Origin: Paraprevotella sp.
Lineage (GTDB): Bacteria > Bacteroidota > Bacteroidia > Bacteroidales > Bacteroidaceae
Length of the DNA stretch: 64,000 nucleotides
NCBI GenBank assembly: GCA_017937925.1
Contig: JAGBCQ010000023.1
Location: 1 to 64,000, forward strand
Reading direction: 5' to 3'
The position numbers and the translations under genes were made by a program. Positions 41,080 to 51,203 of this stretch are shown one piece after another (positions within the stretch are counted from its first letter, which is position 1; every line of letters starts with the position of its first letter). The notes below the pieces were generated by a model that worked only from the letters and a program-made list of their open reading frames with translations, had not been told where the DNA came from and ran no database searches.

Positions 41080-43845
41080 TTATCTATGTTGTATTACGAA
41101 TTTCCGTGTGCCGGTCTCTTTCCCTGAAGCGGCTTTCAGTATGTATAATCCCGCCGGGTAGGTGCCGGTATCAATACGTACTGTCTCTTGACTTGTAGCG
41201 TTGATGTTTTGCATCAGAACACCTTGGGTATTATATATTTGTAAAGTGACCATGTCGGTACTGTTGCTTGTTGTGAAATCTACGACAAGTTCTTTGTCAA
41301 TCAGCGAAGTCTTAAAGTTTATGCCAAGTTCCTTTTTGGTAGGTTCGTTAATGCTTGTTACTTCATTAACCAATTTCTTAACCTCATCGTTCGTTAAGGC
41401 ATAATTATAAATTCTGAAGTCGTCTATATAGCCTTTGAATAGAGGGTCTGCAGCAAATTGACTACGTCCGATGTAGTTCATGAATGGTTTGAAATCGGCC
41501 GGGCGTATGGTAATTTCTTTTGATGAACCGATAAGCTTACCATCCAAGTAGATAGCCACACTGTCTTCGCCCATGCTGAGCGCTAAATGTGCCCATTTGT
41601 TGCGAGAAGTTGTCATCGTTACGTCTGCCGTCAATGTCTGTTCTTCTCCACCATTCTTAATAGCGAATCTCACTTTGTTTCCCTCGTTGGAGCGAACGGT
41701 TAGGAACATGTATTCATTCTCGTCGTTACCGAAATCAAAAACACGTTGCCATGTGTCGCCACCGCGCCAATAAACCCATGTGGAAATGGTCAGGTTCTTT
41801 AAGTTGGCAATCTCCGTAGGCAGTTGAATGAAGTTGGATGTTCCATTCAATTCAAAAGAGTAGTTCCCGGAGTTTCCTATGGTGTAGGTCTCGGTTAGCG
41901 CTGCCGCATTATTGATGTTTTCTGTTGTGTCTTTAGTGGTTTCTTCAAACTCATATCTTGCCACCAATGCTTTCCCGTCGGTAGGTGTCGCAGATACAGA
42001 TTCTGAAACGGGCGAGGTGTTATAGAACATATCAATCATTTTGACGCAATAATGATAGGTCTTTCCTGCCTGAACTTTATTATCTACGAACACGGTATCC
42101 GTAATGTTTCTTCCAATGGTTTCATAATCTCCGTCGGCAACTTCCGAACGCAATACGGTGTATGTCGGGGTATAACCGTCTGCTTGGTTCCATTTTAGTC
42201 GTATTGATGCCGGTTTAGCCTCTGCTTGAAGTCCGGTTGGGGCGGCGAAACTGCGAAGTTTTGGGCGTGTGCCGACAGGGACGAATCGCCATAACTGTCC
42301 GTCATTTCCGTCTTTTACTCCTTGAACGACATTGTTGCTGTACAATTCAAGGCAATGTGAACTGTGTCTGTGGCGGATATAGAACCATCCGTCGCTTTCG
42401 TATTCCAAATACCATTGTTGGTTGGCGCTGCTGCTATCTGTTCCCCATATAATCACATCCGCATTGTCCTCCAACGACCAGTTTTGAACGTCCAATGATT
42501 GTTTGGTGCTTGCGGACATGATGTAATGATAACTGAAATCGCTGTTCTTCAATGGGTCAACGGGATTGACATACCATTGTTGGGTCTTGAGCGCTTTGTT
42601 ATAAGAGTTTACTTGCAGATTACCATTGACGATATCCATTACCTTTGTCGGTTGGAACTTGTTGACCAGCATGTATGTACCGTCAATAACCGGTTGGATG
42701 TCATCGCCCCATGTGATATTTACGACACATTCGGCATTGGTTTGTCCGACTTGATAGCCCGTACCTCCCGGAAGGTCGATGATATATTCACGTTGTGGCC
42801 CGTGTCCGTTGAAGAATACGTCGCGCTCTTTCGAAATGAATTTATAGCTTGTGGCTGCCGCTTGTCGCTCGGATGTGCCGGCAAAGGCCTGAACTTTCCC
42901 GTCGGGAGCGCGGTAAACAGATGCTGCAGTCCAATTGTCGCGGTGCTCGGCGTATGCCAAACGTTCGCCGTGGCTTGCTTTGCAGAATTCGCCACGTGCG
43001 TATTCGGCAGGTCCCCACCAGATGCCCGTTTGCAGTCCGTATTCCAAGCCGACCATAGCCTCCATGACATTGTGCATCTCATCATCCGTGGCGTGATTGC
43101 CATCTTGACGAACCTTAGTGAAGAAGTTGGCAAAATTGTTGAAAGAACCGGCTAATTGGTGTGTATTACCCTCGTCTAAGTATTCTTTAAGGGTATTATA
43201 CCAATAATATGCCTGGTCGCAGTTCAAGGTATTGCCTCCACATATTCTGATGGTGTCGAAGCGACTGTTTTTTCTTAACTCGGCAGCGATGTTGTAAAAG
43301 TCGGTAATCGTGCCTTGTCCTGTGGCGGAATAATCCGGTTCATTGAAGGGAGCGACAGAAACGACTCTGTAGCCTGCCTCTTGAAAATATTTTGTGGTAA
43401 CGTCGATGAGTTCCGCCCAGTTCTTGGCATTGCCCACGTAAGAAGCATCAACCGAAGGATGGTCGCAATTGAGCATTAACTTGACGTCAGGCTTGCAGTA
43501 TTTAAGTAGTCTTAAACGCTGGTTTAAGTAGTTTTTTTGTTGTCTTTGCAGGTCCCCGTCAATAAGTGGGTAGGTGGGTTGGAACGAACCGCGCGCTATT
43601 GATACATTGTCCTGTCCCATGAACAAGATGCAACGTCGGAAGTTTTGTTCATGTATCCATGCCAAATCGGCACCCCATTCAACTTCTCTGACGATGCCCT
43701 TTTCGGACAATTTGAATGGAACTATTCTGTCAGTAAGTGGTTCCACTTTTAAATTGCTGCTTGAGCTGAATCCTTGAGCGATAGCAGTATAAGAGCAGGC
43801 TGTTAGGAGTAATGTCGCTAATAACTTTGATGCATAGTTCTTCAT
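41080..43845 (-). CDS. Secreted multidomain glycosidase-like protein with T9SS type A tail
   Basis: A 921-residue paralogue of the 21640-25920 protein. Signal peptide (about 1-24), GH-A-like domain (about 25-385) with E169 in APFNEPD and E262 in HNVMEA, ricin-type lectin (about 386-555), fibronectin III (about 560-620), LamG (about 625-820). A canonical type IX secretion sorting domain follows (about 841-921, LQIYNTQGVLMQ...YPAGLYILKA...KFVIQHR). An upstream in-frame start at 43905 exists, but ATG 43845 directly precedes the signal peptide. The family and substrate are unidentified. It lies between a rhamnosidase and an alkaline phosphatase, suggesting polysaccharide or glycoprotein breakdown. 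Confidence 0.78.
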   Translation of the reverse strand: MKNYASKLLATLLLTACSYTAIAQGFSSSSNLKVEPLTDRIVPFKLSEKGIVREVEWGADLAWIHEQNFRRCILFMGQDNVSIARGSFQPTYPLIDGDLQRQQKNYLNQRLRLLKYCKPDVKLMLNCDHPSVDASYVGNAKNWAELIDVTTKYFQEAGYRVVSVAPFNEPDYSATGQGTITDFYNIAAELRKNSRFDTIRICGGNTLNCDQAYYWYNTLKEYLDEGNTHQLAGSFNNFANFFTKVRQDGNHATDDEMHNVMEAMVGLEYGLQTGIWWGPAEYARGEFCKASHGERLAYAEHRDNWTAASVYRAPDGKVQAFAGTSERQAAATSYKFISKERDVFFNGHGPQREYIIDLPGGTGYQVGQTNAECVVNITWGDDIQPVIDGTYMLVNKFQPTKVMDIVNGNLQVNSYNKALKTQQWYVNPVDPLKNSDFSYHYIMSASTKQSLDVQNWSLEDNADVIIWGTDSSSANQQWYLEYESDGWFYIRHRHSSHCLELYSNNVVQGVKDGNDGQLWRFVPVGTRPKLRSFAAPTGLQAEAKPASIRLKWNQADGYTPTYTVLRSEVADGDYETIGRNITDTVFVDNKVQAGKTYHYCVKMIDMFYNTSPVSESVSATPTDGKALVARYEFEETTKDTTENINNAAALTETYTIGNSGNYSFELNGTSNFIQLPTEIANLKNLTISTWVYWRGGDTWQRVFDFGNDENEYMFLTVRSNEGNKVRFAIKNGGEEQTLTADVTMTTSRNKWAHLALSMGEDSVAIYLDGKLIGSSKEITIRPADFKPFMNYIGRSQFAADPLFKGYIDDFRIYNYALTNDEVKKLVNEVTSINEPTKKELGINFKTSLIDKELVVDFTTSNSTDMVTLQIYNTQGVLMQNINATSQETVRIDTGTYPAGLYILKAASGKETGTRKFVIQHR

Positions 43846-43945
43846 AATAGTAGTTAAATATTTAGTTATATATTGCAAAGTAAATGTTTTTACTTGGTTT
43901 TTCAAATATTTAGGCTGTAAACTTTACTTTTTTGTAAGGTTGCAA

Positions 43946-44117: not shown

Positions 44118-47100
44118 TTATCTTCTTAGCACTTTCTTGACGGATTGCCCCTCCTTAACAATGACGAAACCATCGTTTGGAAGTTCGGGCAATTCGATAC
44201 CGGAAAGAGAAAAATATCGGGCAGTCCGGTCCGTATGGCTCATGGGAGAGTCAATGACGGAATTGTTACCGCCTAATGCATACAATCGGACATTGTCCAC
44301 TTGAAATCCGCCTAACGCTGATGCGTTTCCTTGTGGGCAGTCGAAACCGATGGTCACGGTGTTGTCATTGGAAACCGTGAAGTTCAGAGCCAATGTGCGC
44401 CAATTCCCTTGATTCTCATTGTCGTTGTTGTTAATGTTGACGCTTCCATCCGCATTATAAGGGTCGGAAAAAATGCTGCTGCTGTTCACTGCATCGCTCC
44501 CGATGGTGGCGAAAAGGCGTTGTTCCCCTGTTATGGCGGCATTATCTACGCATCGCATATCTGCGTAAAGGGCGTAGTCGCCGGTAGGTATGTTATGAAT
44601 GGTCTGGAAAAGTCTGACAGATACATAACCGCTATTATACCATATATGCCAATCGAAAGCGCCTTCTGTTGGATTGATGTTACGTTGGTCGCTGGTGCTC
44701 AAACTCCCGTAATTGCCATTTGTGTCCGGGAAGTCAAGGGTCCAACTGGTTGGTCGCCACGGTATCGCGTTGGTGTCCTTACTTTCAAATCCATGGTTCA
44801 GGATATATTTATCGGTAACGTCCTCGCCGTCCAAATCCGTGTTGTTGTCATCATCCTTTTCGGTAAGTGTACTGCCTGCCATTGTAAATTCATAATTTCC
44901 GCTGCCAAGTTTGAAACAAGCAAGGGTGTCGGTGTATTCCACGTCACTTACTGAGGCAATTGTGCTTAATTCATGCTTGTCTTCATATAGTTTCAAACCT
45001 TTAATGATGGGCAAACGGACTTCCGCAGTAGCTCCGACGGGTACGCAAATGGTATAAACCGTATTGTTGTTATTTCTATTCCAGCCCATTTTTACTTCCC
45101 CTCGTGGCGACAGAACGCTGATGTCCGCCACAGCCATATCCGCAGGAATCCATGGGCGAATAGCTATTCTTTCGTAGGCTTCGCCGATGTTATTGATACC
45201 GCCGAGTTCGGCGAAGAACCACTCTTCGATATGGTCCATCATGCAGTGATTTTGGCTCAGCGACATGTCCCAATACTCCAATGAGGTGGTAGCTCCTTGT
45301 GTCACCCAATAACCATAACTCGGATAGGTGGTTTTGTTTGCCATGCGATATACCACTTCGTTATAACCGTTGGCGGCTAATGCCATGATGGTCGGTCGTA
45401 AACCAATCTCACCGGTCTTTATGCTATAATTGCTGGCTTCCACCGCATCAGCCAATGCCTTTGCCACTGCCGGAATGTTCTCGCTATCAACCAAACCATA
45501 ATAAAGAGCCATGCCGTAATTCGCTTGGTTGCCGTGTTCGTACACACCATTTTTGAAAAAACGGTTGTTAAAGGCTGTTTTAACATCCTCAGCTTGCTTG
45601 AGCCATCCTTCTGCATCGGCAGTGTAACCTAATTCTATCGCCATTTCAGCCATAGCGCCTAAGAAATAATAGTAAGAACAGGTTGACGTAAACGAAGTAC
45701 TTGTATGATTTGCCAAACCACTGGTTTCCTGTCCCCAATCGGAAAGCACGCTGTAGTTGTTGCGAATGACGCCCCCTTCAAGAAGAGTACCATAATAGGT
45801 GATGAGGCGCTTCATCTCGTCATAGTATTGTGTCATAAGCGTCTTGTCGCCATATTGTTTGAAATTACGCCATGGAATGGTGATGCCGGCTCCTCCCCAA
45901 TTAAGGTCGTCATCGTAAACTCTCATAAAATGTGGTACGGTACTTGGAACATAACCGGATGCGCCTTGCGAGTCAAAAGCGTCCATAACGACCTTGCCTA
46001 ACAATGACTTAACGTTGAAGTTATACGAGAGTGATTGATACATCATGTTGGGGACATCCAACCAACCTAGTTTCTCACGATGCGGGCAGTCTGTCACGGT
46101 GTTGTATAATTGGCTTTGTATGCCATTGTAACAGATGCGGTGTATATCATTCAATAAAGTATTGCTCGTCTTGAATTGTCCCACTGTTTCCAGATTGGAG
46201 CGGATGCGCTTGGCAGTAAAGTCGCTTGCTTGAGGCATTTCCGTAAGTCCGCTGATTTCAAGATAGCGGAATCCGTGATACATAAATTCAGGTCCCCAAG
46301 TCTCGCCGTTTTGGTCTCCTTTGAAAGTGTAGGTGTCAAGGGTCTTGTTGGTAGCCCCGTTGGGCTGATACATATATTCGAAAAGGCACGCGTTGTTCGA
46401 CTGAAGTTCTGAGTCGTAAATGGTTATTGTAGTCCCTTCCGGTGCTTTTAGGTTGAAAGAATACGTACCTGCGAAATTTTGTCCGAAATCAACGAGATAA
46501 TTTCCTGCTGAATTTTTCACGACACTGACGGCAGGCCAAGTCTCAACTATGCGTAAAGGCTCGTATTCTCTGGCTCTCATTTCTCCAACAGGCAGAACAG
46601 ATGAAGATACGCTCGGAGCACAAAAAGTAGGATTCACTTCTTCGCACTTTTGCCAAATGCCGACATCAAAGTTCGGCGATTTGATGCCGTTGAGTTCAAG
46701 TCGGGCGTCGTAATCTTCTCCGCCATACCAATTACTGCCGGTAGTGGGAGATTTGTGTGTTCCCCATTCATTATTGGTGTTGATACAGTCGGTACTTCCA
46801 TCTGTATAAGTGATATAAAGCATGGCTCTAAGCGATGTGGTAGCAGCGTTGCTTGCCAATTCATGCTTTACAAAACGGTCGCTCATTGCGCTCATGTTGA
46901 CAATGCCTCCAGCCACTTGTGCTATTAACGTGTTTTTCCCCGACACGAGTAGTGGTGTAACATCGTATGTGCTATAAAGAATGTGTTTGTCGTATGCGCT
47001 TTCACCCGGCTCTAAGACGTTGTCGGTAACTTTCTCTCCATTTAATTGCATCGTGAAAACACCTAATGCAGATGCGTATAATCTAGCCGACGCCACCGTC

Positions 47101-48083
47101 TTGTCTTGTGGAATCTCGAAATTCCGACCCATATAAGGTATATTGTTGGTGTTATCGTATGAGGGTGCCTCTGCGTCTTCAATTTGGTATTGTACGGTAT
47201 AAGGCGTGTCTGTGTCCTTAGTTTCTACTGTGTAACTGCTTGGGAAATTCGCAGCTTTGTTCGGTTGGTTGATAGCCGGTGCGTCTTGACGTGGGTATAG
47301 GACGATGCGAGTAATCTCTTGTGAGCTTTCTAATTTCGCAATGATGGTGGTCGTCGTCATGTTTTGCGTAGTTGTAAAACCATTAGTGCCACCGCCTGAA
47401 ATGATTCCGTCATTGATGTATTTGATACTCCACCCATAATCGCCGAGTTCCCATCCGTTTGAAGCAGTGAATGTAGCATCCTTTCCGATGTTCACACCTT
47501 CCTTATTATATATTTCTATTTCGGCAATCTGCACAAAACCATAATTAGGGTCGCTGGCTGCACGTAAACCGCTTTCCGTTACGTTTAATTTTATATATTT
47601 GGATTTGACGGCCCCGTCTTTGGGGTAAATTTCCACGATGGCTCTATAGGGTGATTCTTTAGGCGCAATCCATTTTGCATTATCCCACTCCGATTGAGAG
47701 AGTATTCCGGTTTCAAAATAACTTTCTGCGACTTCAGATGCAGTCCCATTTTGGTCGTAGGTTACAACCGTCCATTTGTATTTTGAACGGCTTTTAAGCG
47801 TATTCCCTTCGTAAGGAATATCTGTTTGCTTACTGCTCGCCATCTTTCCGCTGTTCCACATAGTAACTCCGGTGGAGTCCTCAACAACGATTTCGTAAGC
47901 ACTTTGTTTGATACCGCGTTCGTTTGAAACCATTTTCCAACTAAACGATGGATTGCTCTCAATGCCAATGGGTGCCTTTAGCCCTAATGTCCGCAAATCA
48001 ATGACTTCATGCAGACTAAATGACGACAAGGATAGTAGTGTCGCAAAACAAAGGCAGAAATACTTTTTGCTCATAAACTTCAT
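44118..48083 (-). CDS. GH78 alpha-L-rhamnosidase with extra binding domains
   Basis: A 1321-residue secreted enzyme predicted to remove terminal alpha-L-rhamnose. Signal peptide (about 1-27), N-terminal Ig-like domain (about 28-150), inserted F5/8 type C (discoidin-like) domain (about 155-300), and the rhamnosidase jelly-roll domains. The (alpha/alpha)6 barrel follows, with the signature DCPHREKLGW; E670 is the likely general acid. Residues about 960-1060 are the C-terminal beta domain, about 1100-1265 a carbohydrate-binding-like beta-sandwich, and about 1280-1321 a Prevotella-type sorting tail (YFSLSGIELP...SVKKVLRR). Two inserted domains make it longer than the usual 800-1000. Start 48083; a second ATG is 9 bases on. 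Divergent from the regulator at 48252. Confidence 0.88.
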   Translation of the reverse strand: MKFMSKKYFCLCFATLLSLSSFSLHEVIDLRTLGLKAPIGIESNPSFSWKMVSNERGIKQSAYEIVVEDSTGVTMWNSGKMASSKQTDIPYEGNTLKSRSKYKWTVVTYDQNGTASEVAESYFETGILSQSEWDNAKWIAPKESPYRAIVEIYPKDGAVKSKYIKLNVTESGLRAASDPNYGFVQIAEIEIYNKEGVNIGKDATFTASNGWELGDYGWSIKYINDGIISGGGTNGFTTTQNMTTTTIIAKLESSQEITRIVLYPRQDAPAINQPNKAANFPSSYTVETKDTDTPYTVQYQIEDAEAPSYDNTNNIPYMGRNFEIPQDKTVASARLYASALGVFTMQLNGEKVTDNVLEPGESAYDKHILYSTYDVTPLLVSGKNTLIAQVAGGIVNMSAMSDRFVKHELASNAATTSLRAMLYITYTDGSTDCINTNNEWGTHKSPTTGSNWYGGEDYDARLELNGIKSPNFDVGIWQKCEEVNPTFCAPSVSSSVLPVGEMRAREYEPLRIVETWPAVSVVKNSAGNYLVDFGQNFAGTYSFNLKAPEGTTITIYDSELQSNNACLFEYMYQPNGATNKTLDTYTFKGDQNGETWGPEFMYHGFRYLEISGLTEMPQASDFTAKRIRSNLETVGQFKTSNTLLNDIHRICYNGIQSQLYNTVTDCPHREKLGWLDVPNMMYQSLSYNFNVKSLLGKVVMDAFDSQGASGYVPSTVPHFMRVYDDDLNWGGAGITIPWRNFKQYGDKTLMTQYYDEMKRLITYYGTLLEGGVIRNNYSVLSDWGQETSGLANHTSTSFTSTCSYYYFLGAMAEMAIELGYTADAEGWLKQAEDVKTAFNNRFFKNGVYEHGNQANYGMALYYGLVDSENIPAVAKALADAVEASNYSIKTGEIGLRPTIMALAANGYNEVVYRMANKTTYPSYGYWVTQGATTSLEYWDMSLSQNHCMMDHIEEWFFAELGGINNIGEAYERIAIRPWIPADMAVADISVLSPRGEVKMGWNRNNNNTVYTICVPVGATAEVRLPIIKGLKLYEDKHELSTIASVSDVEYTDTLACFKLGSGNYEFTMAGSTLTEKDDDNNTDLDGEDVTDKYILNHGFESKDTNAIPWRPTSWTLDFPDTNGNYGSLSTSDQRNINPTEGAFDWHIWYNSGYVSVRLFQTIHNIPTGDYALYADMRCVDNAAITGEQRLFATIGSDAVNSSSIFSDPYNADGSVNINNNDNENQGNWRTLALNFTVSNDNTVTIGFDCPQGNASALGGFQVDNVRLYALGGNNSVIDSPMSHTDRTARYFSLSGIELPELPNDGFVIVKEGQSVKKVLRR

Positions 48084-48251
48084 TCGATTTAATCTTATAC
48101 TTGTTTTCCTTTTGCAAAGAAATAACGGAATTGAATCACTACCATGATATATTAGTTCAAAAAAGTCAAAAATAAGTTCATTGTATGATTTTGAGATATT
48201 TTAGGGGGTAGTTACAAACTTATTTTTAACTAAAATCCTTAAATTTACGCC

Positions 48252-51203
48252 ATGAATATGATAATCCGTTTACTGATGGTGTTGATAGCTTGGACATACG
48301 TTAGTGCAACCCAAGCAAAAGAAGGATGGCAACATATTAAAGGGTTGCCTTGTGAGGAAACGTCATCAGTCATTCAGGACAATGAAGGATATATATGGGT
48401 CGGCACCCGATTAGGTCTTGTCAGATATGACGGTTTTAACAAGAACTTTTATCGCAACGACATGGCTCATCCTCACGCGTTCAGCTCGTCGGATATCAAA
48501 TGTTTATCATGTAGCGCGGATGGAAGAATCTTCGCAGGTTCTTTCTTTGGTTTGAATATATTTGACAAGAGAACGCATGACGTCCGATTTGAGCATTTTG
48601 AGAGGAACGATTATGTAAGAACCGTTCATTACGACCAAAAGGGACGATTGTGGATTGGTACAGATGATGGATTGTACTTACAAGAAGGAGGGCATGAGAG
48701 TCATTTGTATAAACAGATTCCACAGGATTTGATACAACATATCGAAGAAAGTGCGGAGGGGGAAATTATTATTGCTACGAGAAGTCATGGTTTATTTATT
48801 ATAGATGAACATGAGCAGTGTCTTGCAGTCAAGGGTACAGAGAGTATATCGCCTACTGTGACGCTTTCACTCGATGATGGTACTATTTGGGTAGGAACAC
48901 ATAGCAAGGGACTTTACTCATTAAAAAATCATCAAATTGATTTTCATAAAGTTTTTGATGATTTCGTTATCAATGATTTGTTGTTATTGCCTTCAAATAA
49001 GGGGCAGCTTCTAGTTGCGACAAATTCAGGCATTATAAGCAATCCTTTTAATGAATCAGAGGCCTCATTAAATGGCAAGAATGTGCAAAGTCTATGTTTG
49101 GACCGAGATGGGAATGTTTGGGCAGCGACAGAGAATCAAGGTGTATATTTATTGCAGAACCATAAGGAGCAATTTACAATAATCAACCACCCGTTCACAC
49201 ATCGGACAACACCTATCATCTCACAATTTGACGTGCGGCATTTGGCTGATACTGTGATATGGAAAACGCTGAATCATATCAATGCTGTTTATGAATCTCC
49301 CGATGGAATGGTCTATATTGGAACATGGGACAAAGGATTGTATGTGACGAAAGGTGGCGTGATGAAGCAACATATTACGAAACAAAATCATACATGGCTT
49401 CAAGATAACTCTATCTATAATATCAGTACGCTAGGAAAAGATGAAGTCCTTATCAGTACATGGCATGGATTATATTTAATGGATAGTCGCTATAACGGAA
49501 CATATATAGAACATATAGGAAAGAGTGATGTACGAGGGATGCATGTATTGTCGGCTACGATTCCGAATGAAAAGGAAGCATGGTTAGGACTCGTAGGCGG
49601 TATTGCCCACATAAAAGGAAACTTACGGAATGCAGAAACTTCGGAAATAACCATCTATAGTCATGTTGATAGACGTGGCACGTTGAATCCTTTGAGCGTC
49701 AGTCAACTTATAGACCACCATGATGATGCAGGGAACTATCAGTTGGGAGGTATATTCAGAATCATAAAAGATAGCAAAGGTCGTGTTTGGGCTTGCACAA
49801 GTGAGCCGGGCTTGTTACTTTATGATGAGCAAGACGATTGTTTCCGTTGTGTCAGTCAACAATTAGGTATTCAAGGTGATAATGTTCATAGCTTGGATAT
49901 TGACCGGCATGGTAATTTCTGGATGACTACAAATTATGGCATATTGCAGATGTCGCTTAATGATGACGGCGAATCAACAAAGCAACAACTTTATTCATTG
50001 AATGACGGACTGCCTACAAGTTATTATGGAAGTTCTATGAGTACGCTTCTGGAGGATGGCCGGTTGTGTATCCTCAATCAAGAACAAATCATAACCGTTC
50101 ATCCCGCCGATAAATTTGGTATGAGTAATGAGAAGAAAACCTATGTGTCTGACATCTTTATCAATAATATACCACTTGTAGATGGGGATTTCAGTTTTGA
50201 CCAAGCGCCTCCATATACGCAATATGTAGAGTTGCCACATAATCAGAATAATATTACATTCCGTTTCTCAATGCTTTCGTTCGGTCATGAGCCCTCCATG
50301 CGTTTTAGTTACAAGATGGAAGGCGTGGACAATGGTACTCAGCAAACAGAAATGGGAATCAATCAAGTGCGGTATAATCAATTGGCACCGGGTACATACC
50401 GGCTTTATTATTCTGTTTACGATAATGGAAAGGATAATGGGGTTGGAGGACAATACTTAACTATTAGAATTAAAGAACCGTTATGGTGGTGCTGGTGGTC
50501 GAAGATGCTTTACGTTGCAATCTTCTTACTGATAGGTTATATGATTATTCATACTATCATTGACAAGAATAGGAGGCGTCAACAGTTGAGGTTCCTTGAA
50601 TTGGAGCGGGATAAGCAAGAAGAGTTTTATAAGAAGAGGATGAACTTTTATCAAAAAGCTTTGCATGAATTCCTGACGCCTCTTACTTTAATGAGTGAAA
50701 TGATTCATGGTCTGCATGAAAAAGTTCGCCCATCGTTGCAAGCCAGTCTTTATATGCTTTCTAATCAAACTGACAGACTTGTAGATGCCCTGAATAATTT
50801 GGTGGATGTCAAAGAGGATTCCGCAGCGCGTGATGTTTTGAAGAAGGCTCAGGAAATGACACAGGTTGACAGCGACTTTTTACGCAAATGTACAGAGTCC
50901 GTCAATAATCATATTTCTGATGTTAATTATTCGCACAAAATAATGATGCGTGAAGTAGGAGCTTCGCATGCTACGCTTTACCGGAAATTGAAGTTGTTGA
51001 CGGGAATGGATGCAACTTCCTTTATAAGAAGTATTCGCATGAAGGCGGCATGCCAGATTTTAACCTATGAACCGAACATTCGTGTTAAAGAACTTTCGGA
51101 GCGTGTCGGATACAACAATCCGGGTTATTTCTCTACCTGTTTCAAGAATGAGTTAGGGATGACCCCGAAAGAGTTTGTACGTGATGAGCACGAAACGATA
51201 TAG
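48252..51203 (+). CDS. Membrane sensor-AraC regulator: shortened hybrid two-component system
   Basis: A 983-residue protein built like the hybrid two-component regulators of Bacteroidetes polysaccharide loci but incomplete. Signal peptide (about 1-22), two seven-bladed-propeller halves of Reg_prop repeats (about 30-620, GYIWVGTRLGLVRYDG), Y_Y_Y domain (about 630-745), one membrane helix (about 750-770). A HisKA-like helical pair follows (about 785-855) with the phosphoacceptor His805 in HEFLTPLTL. Only about 18 residues then separate it from the AraC linker and HTH (about 873-983, LYRKLKLLTG...GYFSTCFKNELGMTPKEFV). The HATPase_c and receiver domains, about 250 residues, are absent. It probably senses a glycan product and regulates the divergent rhamnosidase operon. 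Confidence 0.88.
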   Translation: MNMIIRLLMVLIAWTYVSATQAKEGWQHIKGLPCEETSSVIQDNEGYIWVGTRLGLVRYDGFNKNFYRNDMAHPHAFSSSDIKCLSCSADGRIFAGSFFGLNIFDKRTHDVRFEHFERNDYVRTVHYDQKGRLWIGTDDGLYLQEGGHESHLYKQIPQDLIQHIEESAEGEIIIATRSHGLFIIDEHEQCLAVKGTESISPTVTLSLDDGTIWVGTHSKGLYSLKNHQIDFHKVFDDFVINDLLLLPSNKGQLLVATNSGIISNPFNESEASLNGKNVQSLCLDRDGNVWAATENQGVYLLQNHKEQFTIINHPFTHRTTPIISQFDVRHLADTVIWKTLNHINAVYESPDGMVYIGTWDKGLYVTKGGVMKQHITKQNHTWLQDNSIYNISTLGKDEVLISTWHGLYLMDSRYNGTYIEHIGKSDVRGMHVLSATIPNEKEAWLGLVGGIAHIKGNLRNAETSEITIYSHVDRRGTLNPLSVSQLIDHHDDAGNYQLGGIFRIIKDSKGRVWACTSEPGLLLYDEQDDCFRCVSQQLGIQGDNVHSLDIDRHGNFWMTTNYGILQMSLNDDGESTKQQLYSLNDGLPTSYYGSSMSTLLEDGRLCILNQEQIITVHPADKFGMSNEKKTYVSDIFINNIPLVDGDFSFDQAPPYTQYVELPHNQNNITFRFSMLSFGHEPSMRFSYKMEGVDNGTQQTEMGINQVRYNQLAPGTYRLYYSVYDNGKDNGVGGQYLTIRIKEPLWWCWWSKMLYVAIFLLIGYMIIHTIIDKNRRRQQLRFLELERDKQEEFYKKRMNFYQKALHEFLTPLTLMSEMIHGLHEKVRPSLQASLYMLSNQTDRLVDALNNLVDVKEDSAARDVLKKAQEMTQVDSDFLRKCTESVNNHISDVNYSHKIMMREVGASHATLYRKLKLLTGMDATSFIRSIRMKAACQILTYEPNIRVKELSERVGYNNPGYFSTCFKNELGMTPKEFVRDEHETI

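Follow-up and report, generated by a model that had tools for sequence, protein, structure and literature searches.

How can a membrane-bound regulator of the hybrid two-component type control a gene once its kinase and receiver are gone? Hybrid two-component systems (HTCSs) are described as carrying kinase and receiver in one chain, and all those that PMC3878776 identified are reported there to have both. The question is raised by a 64,000-nucleotide stretch of Paraprevotella sp. DNA (contig JAGBCQ010000023.1, positions 1 to 64,000; hereafter the window), where a gene on the plus strand (48252..51203) encodes a transmembrane regulator of 983 amino acids made of a propeller sensor, a Y_Y_Y domain, a membrane helix, a DHp stub and an AraC-type helix-turn-helix (HTH), with neither HATPase_c nor receiver. 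We think it likely, from the features described below, that this protein is a former HTCS turned into a transmembrane one-component regulator that acts independently of phosphorylation on a divergent GH78-type gene and on itself, and we infer the mechanism by which it would do so. The orthologous form is kept in seven species, each time with a divergent gene of predicted GH78 type and a 21-bp direct repeat as putative operator.

The frame is open across the 983 residues with zero internal stops, as had been stated in a preliminary description of this DNA. Curated Pfam cut-offs were exceeded by the periplasmic Reg_prop propeller repeats (PF07494, 92.3 bits in 4 stretches; residues 26-640 with limits set by hand, 48327..50171), the Y_Y_Y domain (28.4 bits, cut-off 26.6; residues 683-731, 50298..50444) and the AraC-type HTH_18 domain (60.7 bits, cut-off 33.6; residues 900-977, 50949..51182), all of them, like the features that follow, on the plus strand. 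Averaged over seven orthologues, hydropathy within residues 743-884 is highest in the membrane helix (residues 752-770, 50505..50561). Pfam HisKA matched the stub (residues 799-852, 50646..50807), which contains His805 (codon 50664..50666) in the motif LHEFLTPL, below its cut-off (17.0 bits, E 0.0062, cut-off 26.9). Custom hidden Markov models (HMMs) built from full-length HTCSs for HisKA, HATPase, receiver (REC) and HTH returned HisKA at 792-862 with E 4e-10 and HTH with E 2e-31, in a stop-to-stop numbering that equals the protein numbering plus 3. HATPase_c and Response_reg had no Pfam match in the regulator at E<=1, and the custom HATPase and REC models had none at E<=10. The preliminary description had proposed that propeller, Y_Y_Y domain, membrane helix, a HisKA-like segment with His805 and the AraC HTH were kept and that HATPase_c and receiver were lost; Pfam, the custom HMMs and hhalign bear out the first part, and the profile searches, which found neither lost domain in the regulator or in its orthologues, agree with the second. 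The nearest solved structures are HTCS sensor domains (3v9f, 3ott, 4a2l) and DNA-binding parts of HTCSs or response regulators (12aw, 6swi).

That description had also suggested surveying genomes for proteins with Reg_prop, Y_Y_Y, membrane helix, HisKA stub and AraC domain and without ATPase, and such a survey brought the orthologues to seven. From a larger group we took 399 genomes of the family and searched them, scoring at most two candidates per genome, and obtained five full-length members, the window's included, in three genus groups. A contig scan using the alignment of these members gave six full-length members with 50-55% identity among the best 77 loci; two of the six were new (L093 and L094), and the other four were on contigs equal in length to those found before. 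The scan relied on two sequence patterns in the propeller, so that members varying there may be missed. A genome-contig scan with the single protein and a scan of viral contigs led nowhere. L093 is RUG13652, a Bacteroidales metagenome-assembled genome (MAG) whose RUG prefix stands for rumen, and L094 is a Prevotella MAG from yak rumen. The seven distinct orthologues, from the window and six other MAGs, share 49-55% pairwise identity, apart from one pair at 91%, and sheep or yak gut is named as the source of four of the six others. All six have the same architecture in open frames of 977-1006 amino acids, and Pfam, run on five orthologues, matched Y_Y_Y and HTH_18 in each and HisKA in three at E<=1, with no HATPase_c or Response_reg in any. 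An assembly error or a decaying pseudogene could be suspected, given that the window comes from a draft genome of 33 contigs and 78.6% completeness; however, six other assemblies share the form with open frames and the stub appears to be under purifying selection, so we give this explanation practically no probability and rejected the assembly artefact. Neither a deletion artefact nor close homologues with the full set of domains, the two outcomes that the preliminary description had named as speaking against it, occurred in the data.

Conservation along the protein suggests that the DHp stub is under purifying selection. Averaged over pairs of orthologues, the two halves of the stub have identities of 0.60 and 0.69, compared to 0.51 for the propeller, 0.48 for the membrane helix and 0.75 for the HTH. 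The stub of the 91% pair (L073 and L075) carries 15 synonymous and 0 nonsynonymous differences, compared to about 162 and about 87 (rounded) in the other five regions (Fisher p 0.003). The sensor is also constrained, since the ratio of nonsynonymous to synonymous rates (dN/dS) in the same pair is 0.16 for the propeller and 0.03 for Y_Y_Y, and 26% and 24% of their respective columns are invariant over the seven orthologues. Such constraint would be needless in an unused sensor, and it stands against a signal-blind regulator whose tethered AraC pair, freed from an inhibiting receiver, would always be bound to DNA and would fix GH78 expression. In most full HTCSs the receiver, gone here, indeed inhibits the DNA-binding domain and keeps it inactive until phosphorylated, according to the passages of PMC11253607 used in this work; weighing both sides, we regard a signal-blind regulator as improbable.

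The alignment of the seven orthologues is gap-free over the 236 columns that run from membrane helix through HTH (residues 743-978), whereas 10 gap runs fall within residues 26-742 (719 columns). Some other membrane-bound transcription factors are known to be released by proteases upon a signal, and a signal-triggered protease could likewise free the DNA-binding part of this protein from the membrane; the fixed membrane-to-HTH length favours an intact tether, and we consider such a release very unlikely.

The identity of the stub was examined with hhalign, comparing a profile of the seven orthologues (from 40 residues before the His up to the HTH start) with HTCS domain profiles. The HTCS HisKA profile was matched with a probability of 98.3% (E 2.6e-14) over positions 2-68 of its 75, with HATPase at 0.1% and none of the receiver, HATPase and HTH profiles above 2.2%. 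Single-sequence HMM scores of the second half of the stub were mostly weak, favouring DHp in four of the seven orthologues (E 0.011 in the window) and the receiver profile in three; the best were E 0.0004 for DHp in L045, the sole score that is not weak, and E 0.023 for the receiver in L093. One MAFFT alignment had placed this half in the receiver, and the possibility that it is a receiver remnant is left less likely, because the joint match of the whole stub (98.3% HisKA versus 2.2% receiver) decides in favour of the second helix of DHp. Between the His and the HTH start lie 76 residues in all seven orthologues versus 395-426 in the seven full-length relatives measured, so around 320-350 residues are missing at the junction (residues 853-872, 50808..50867) and not the approximately 250 first estimated.

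The motif around the former phospho-acceptor is kept in part. His, Thr at +4 and Pro at +5 are invariant in the seven orthologues, and Glu at +1 is present in six; in the yak-rumen Prevotella orthologue (L094:5956-8862) His-His replaces His-Glu. The residue preceding the His is Leu or Phe in 7/7, in contrast to Ser, Thr, Ala or Gly in 114 of 114 non-redundant full HTCSs, and by this comparison the change is specific to the orthologous group. Leu or Met at +3 was also considered as a mark of lost catalysis and rejected, as 44 of the same 114 full HTCSs have it.

These residues bear on whether His805 still accepts phosphate, with the ATPase of another sensor phosphorylating it in trans in a mixed dimer and with the phosphorylated DHp, or a receiver elsewhere, as the output. 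The invariant His and Thr-Pro and the strong constraint on the stub would fit this possibility, as would the presence in the genome of two full HTCSs among six Y_Y_Y proteins and of nine HATPase_c matches in all. It is opposed by the loss of the acidic residue after the His in one of the seven, by the Leu or Phe before it, by the lack of a receiver in the chain and by the location of the HATPase_c matches, none of which (0/9 in this incomplete genome) is on the contig of the regulator, although a missing partner kinase proves little because the genome is 78.6% complete. We judge phosphorylation in trans to be unlikely, and quite unlikely the particular form of it in which His805 receives its phosphate from another HTCS within a mixed dimer and the phosphohistidine alone, with no receiver in the chain, alters the AraC pair; if it were true, a phosphohistidine switch would let one sensor gate the regulon of another. 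Most likely, His805 is kept because the DHp fold is kept and not for carrying phosphate.

The regulator is divergent from a gene for a GH78-type alpha-L-rhamnosidase (44118..48083, minus strand; PF17389, E 2.7e-81) and the same arrangement occurs in 7/7 loci, the assignment being made by Pfam in the window and L072 and by an N-terminal motif only in the other five, three of which have an open reading frame of 1328-1356 amino acids. No other shared neighbour was noticed by eye across the seven loci, where no systematic comparison was made. The 168-bp intergenic region (48084..48251) contains a putative operator on the plus strand (48154..48180), a direct repeat of AGTTCA with the copies 21 bp apart (48154-48159 and 48175-48180), and GTTC is repeated at 21 bp in each of the seven intergenic regions, which are 168-211 bp long. 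Their common pattern, AGTTCA-n5-GT-n2-AAAATAAGTTC, is found with 0 mismatches in five and with 1 in two, and the chance per region in dinucleotide shuffles (2000 each) was 0.0015-0.0055 for a pattern picked after the fact. With start codons chosen by us, 97 nt separate the first GTTC from the regulator ATG in six regions and 96 nt in one, and the distance from operator to GH78 ATG varies from 71 to 114. On the GH78 side a CAAA (48115..48118, minus strand, TTTG on the GH78 strand) is 40-41 nt from the first GTTC in 7/7, two regions having an extra CAAA farther off, and strict CAAAnnTA is present in 4/7. The promoter consensus at -7 is TAnnTTTG; this CAAA could be part of the GH78 -7 element, and TAAATTTA (48240..48247, plus strand), with one mismatch to the consensus and directly upstream of the ATG, is a possible -7 element of the regulator. 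The putative operator is thus placed at a near-fixed distance from both candidate promoters. In searches of five genomes, no second operator site with 0-1 mismatches was found in any and only the five source intergenic sites appeared; allowing <=3 mismatches there were 11 matches compared to 8 for a reversed control.

Since the receiver is absent, control must come from the DHp dimer itself, come from another protein or not exist. We favour the first, with good probability, because the DHp is constrained, the membrane-to-HTH length is fixed, the sensor is kept and the predicted operator has unchanged geometry. In the mechanism that we infer, as we do its ligand, its dimer state, the direction of regulation and the absence of phosphate, a rhamnose-containing oligosaccharide would bind the periplasmic sensor dimer and the membrane helix would transmit the change to the dimeric DHp bundle. 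The bundle would act as a rigid dimer clamp and lever that sets the position of the two AraC domains on the predicted direct repeat at 48154-48180, and the AraC pair would switch on the GH78 gene and adjust the promoter of the regulator itself. In the passages of PMC11253607 used, dimerization domains fused to AraC DNA-binding domains activate transcription, and a Gln replaces the His in the HTCS BT4236, which points to control that does not depend on phosphorylation. The preliminary description had left two mechanisms open, a one-component conformational relay and phosphorylation of His805 by a partner kinase; the relay is the better supported, because ATPase and receiver are absent in 7/7, there are no gaps from membrane to HTH and the predicted operator geometry is of HTCS type, and the partner kinase found little support.

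Several observations weigh against a phosphate-free relay of this kind. The His and Thr-Pro are unchanged, as expected of a working phospho-acceptor, and the second half of the stub alone is not recognisable as DHp by hhalign (DHp 1.1-1.4%, receiver 4.7%). The dN/dS evidence comes from one close pair only, and the gap-free stretch is modestly unusual, as 20 of 720 windows of equal size are also free of gaps. The operator pattern was selected after the alignment had been viewed, and a loose GTTCA-N16-GTTC occurs twice in the window versus 0.66 expected, which is not significant. The Asp and Lys with which the DNA-binding domain of full HTCSs contacts the receiver, mapped by us from their spacing of 39 in the passages of PMC11253607, are retained in 7/7, so that this domain bears no trace of its lost partner; however, these contacts are uninformative, Asp being present in 103 and Lys in 119 of 123 full rows of our alignment (two of which are repeats of a gene); of 31 other rows without HATPase, 22 have the Asp and 20 the Lys.

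Where did this form come from? We built a quick maximum-likelihood tree of 161 Y_Y_Y-AraC rows from the Y_Y_Y and HTH columns, with SH-aLRT support and the root not inferred. The rows, collected by means of the window protein and its orthologues, do not represent a random sample; two genes were among them twice, and counts and tree were repeated with the 152 rows left after removal of duplicates and close copies, 43 of which, including two HATPase-less ones, run off the end of the fetched stretch. The seven orthologues form one clade (support 99) within a 17-row set (99) of the first tree, and the six remaining ones form one clade (99) within a 15-row set (99) of the second, sharing this set with eight full HTCSs and one kinase-less protein. 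Because the clade nests among full HTCSs, ATPase and receiver were probably lost from a full HTCS ancestor in this group. The HATPase state requires at least 14 changes on the 161-row tree and 14 again on the 152-row tree; 60 of the 158 inner branches of the former are weak (support under 80), and repeated loss of HATPase across the class would be the simplest reading. By domain content, the 152 rows (161 in brackets) divide into 114 full HTCSs (122), 1 with HATPase and REC and no HisKA match (1), 25 with HTH only (25), 7 with DHp only (8), 3 with DHp and REC (3) and 2 with REC and no HATPase (2). Six of the seven DHp-only rows of the smaller set belong to the orthologous group; the seventh, L078, has Gln where the His would be.

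We also took a census of six genomes, namely that of the window, three others from the same genus and two selected for carrying an orthologue, with classes assigned by our HMM thresholds. The Y_Y_Y search gave 51 matches, namely 29 full HTCSs, 16 with HTH only, three DHp-HTH, two DHp-REC-HTH and one REC-HTH; 22 of the 51 therefore lack HATPase_c, as do four of the six in the window's own genome. All three DHp-HTH proteins belong to this orthologous group. Kinase loss is common in the Y_Y_Y-AraC class here, and only in this group did we see a DHp kept with its His and nothing more; the regulator, first presented as an oddity, is one instance of a frequent loss. The 16 relatives without a DHp match imply that the class can do without kinase chemistry.

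Other kinase-less relatives were observed along the way. In a named species, Paraprevotella clara YIT 11840, the Y_Y_Y-AraC protein of L126:5821-8805 has also lost an internal part while its frame stays open: the membrane helix is followed directly by the latter half of a receiver, and this by the HTH. The proteins of L241:148-4191 (G249) and L080:742-3897 (G031) have no HATPase_c match but, judged by eye, retain the His and a receiver whose acidic and lysine residues are the usual ones, which makes them candidates for phosphorylation in trans. The window's own genome contains, at L013:2904-6035, a relative with Arg for the His of its DHp plus a receiver, and in L011 and L012 kinase-less Y_Y_Y-AraC regulators adjoining genes that look by eye like those of carbohydrate-active enzymes.

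Some further features surround the intergenic region. A third copy of the operator half-site, inverted and imperfect, lies at 48215..48230 on the minus strand. TAnnTTTG stands at -12 to the regulator ATG in five of the seven orthologues (TAAATTTA in the window), and a promoter there would give an almost leaderless regulator mRNA. Among 39 window genes, the regulator included, 12 have an exact TAnnTTTG within 100 nt, at -26 to -91, and the one at -91 is inside the operator. The protein encoded at 41080-43905 has a ricin-type lectin domain, LamG and a type IX secretion system (T9SS) sorting tail; no Pfam family matches its first 400 residues at E<=1, and inspection by eye suggests an unassigned glycoside hydrolase.

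Compared to known systems, the regulator resembles the Bacteroides HTCSs (BT4663, BT1754, BT4124 and others) in its Reg_prop/Y_Y_Y sensor, membrane helix, DHp with His and AraC HTH, and also in the predicted operator, as HTCS motifs are predicted in the passages of PMC3878776 to be direct repeats spaced 21 bp on average; its nearest tree rows outside the orthologous group are full HTCSs. It differs from them by lacking HATPase_c and receiver, for which no match was found, and by the Leu or Phe before the His, so that it is not an HTCS by membership and probably is one by descent. Its single chain of sensor, membrane helix and DNA-binding domain also makes it similar to the transmembrane transcription regulators (TTRs), which are widespread and which, when they keep two-component domains, are termed hybrid TTRs and may have evolved from two-component systems, with the PilS-PilR chimera Rsp of Neisseria as an example (passages of PMC10269533). 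The one core two-component domain that the regulator keeps is HisKA, detected by sensitive profile and not at the Pfam cut-off. We propose that it works like a TTR, although those passages of PMC10269533 count domains and describe no orthologous AraC group with DHp only and an operator. SusR is likewise a membrane-bound one-component activator of glycan genes, but in the passages of PMC3878776 its DNA-binding domain is unlike other known factors and its predicted motifs are spaced 67 or 77 bp, a description that sets it apart from a regulator with AraC-type HTH and 21 bp predicted spacing. Also comparable are the 25 HTH-only rows of our set, with the same kind of sensor and HTH and neither ATPase nor receiver; unlike the regulator, they have no DHp match at threshold and 54-132 residues between the Y_Y_Y and HTH matches, and two of them, the L031/L201 gene and L084, show by eye a DHp remnant without His. 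The passages of open-licence literature consulted, including PMC10766802, PMC11784079 and PMC8002723, contained no previous report of a DHp-only HTCS derivative.

The absence of ATPase in 22 of 51 regulators of six related genomes advises caution, in that phosphorylation-dependent control should not be assumed for every propeller-AraC regulator. The orthologous group provides a natural separation of DHp catalysis from mechanical transmission, with a predicted operator and one predicted target, and makes it testable whether a DHp bundle drives DNA-binding domains without phosphate. That selection on the relay helices is strong in related species suggests that the regulator switches the adjacent GH78-type gene mechanically rather than by phosphorylation.

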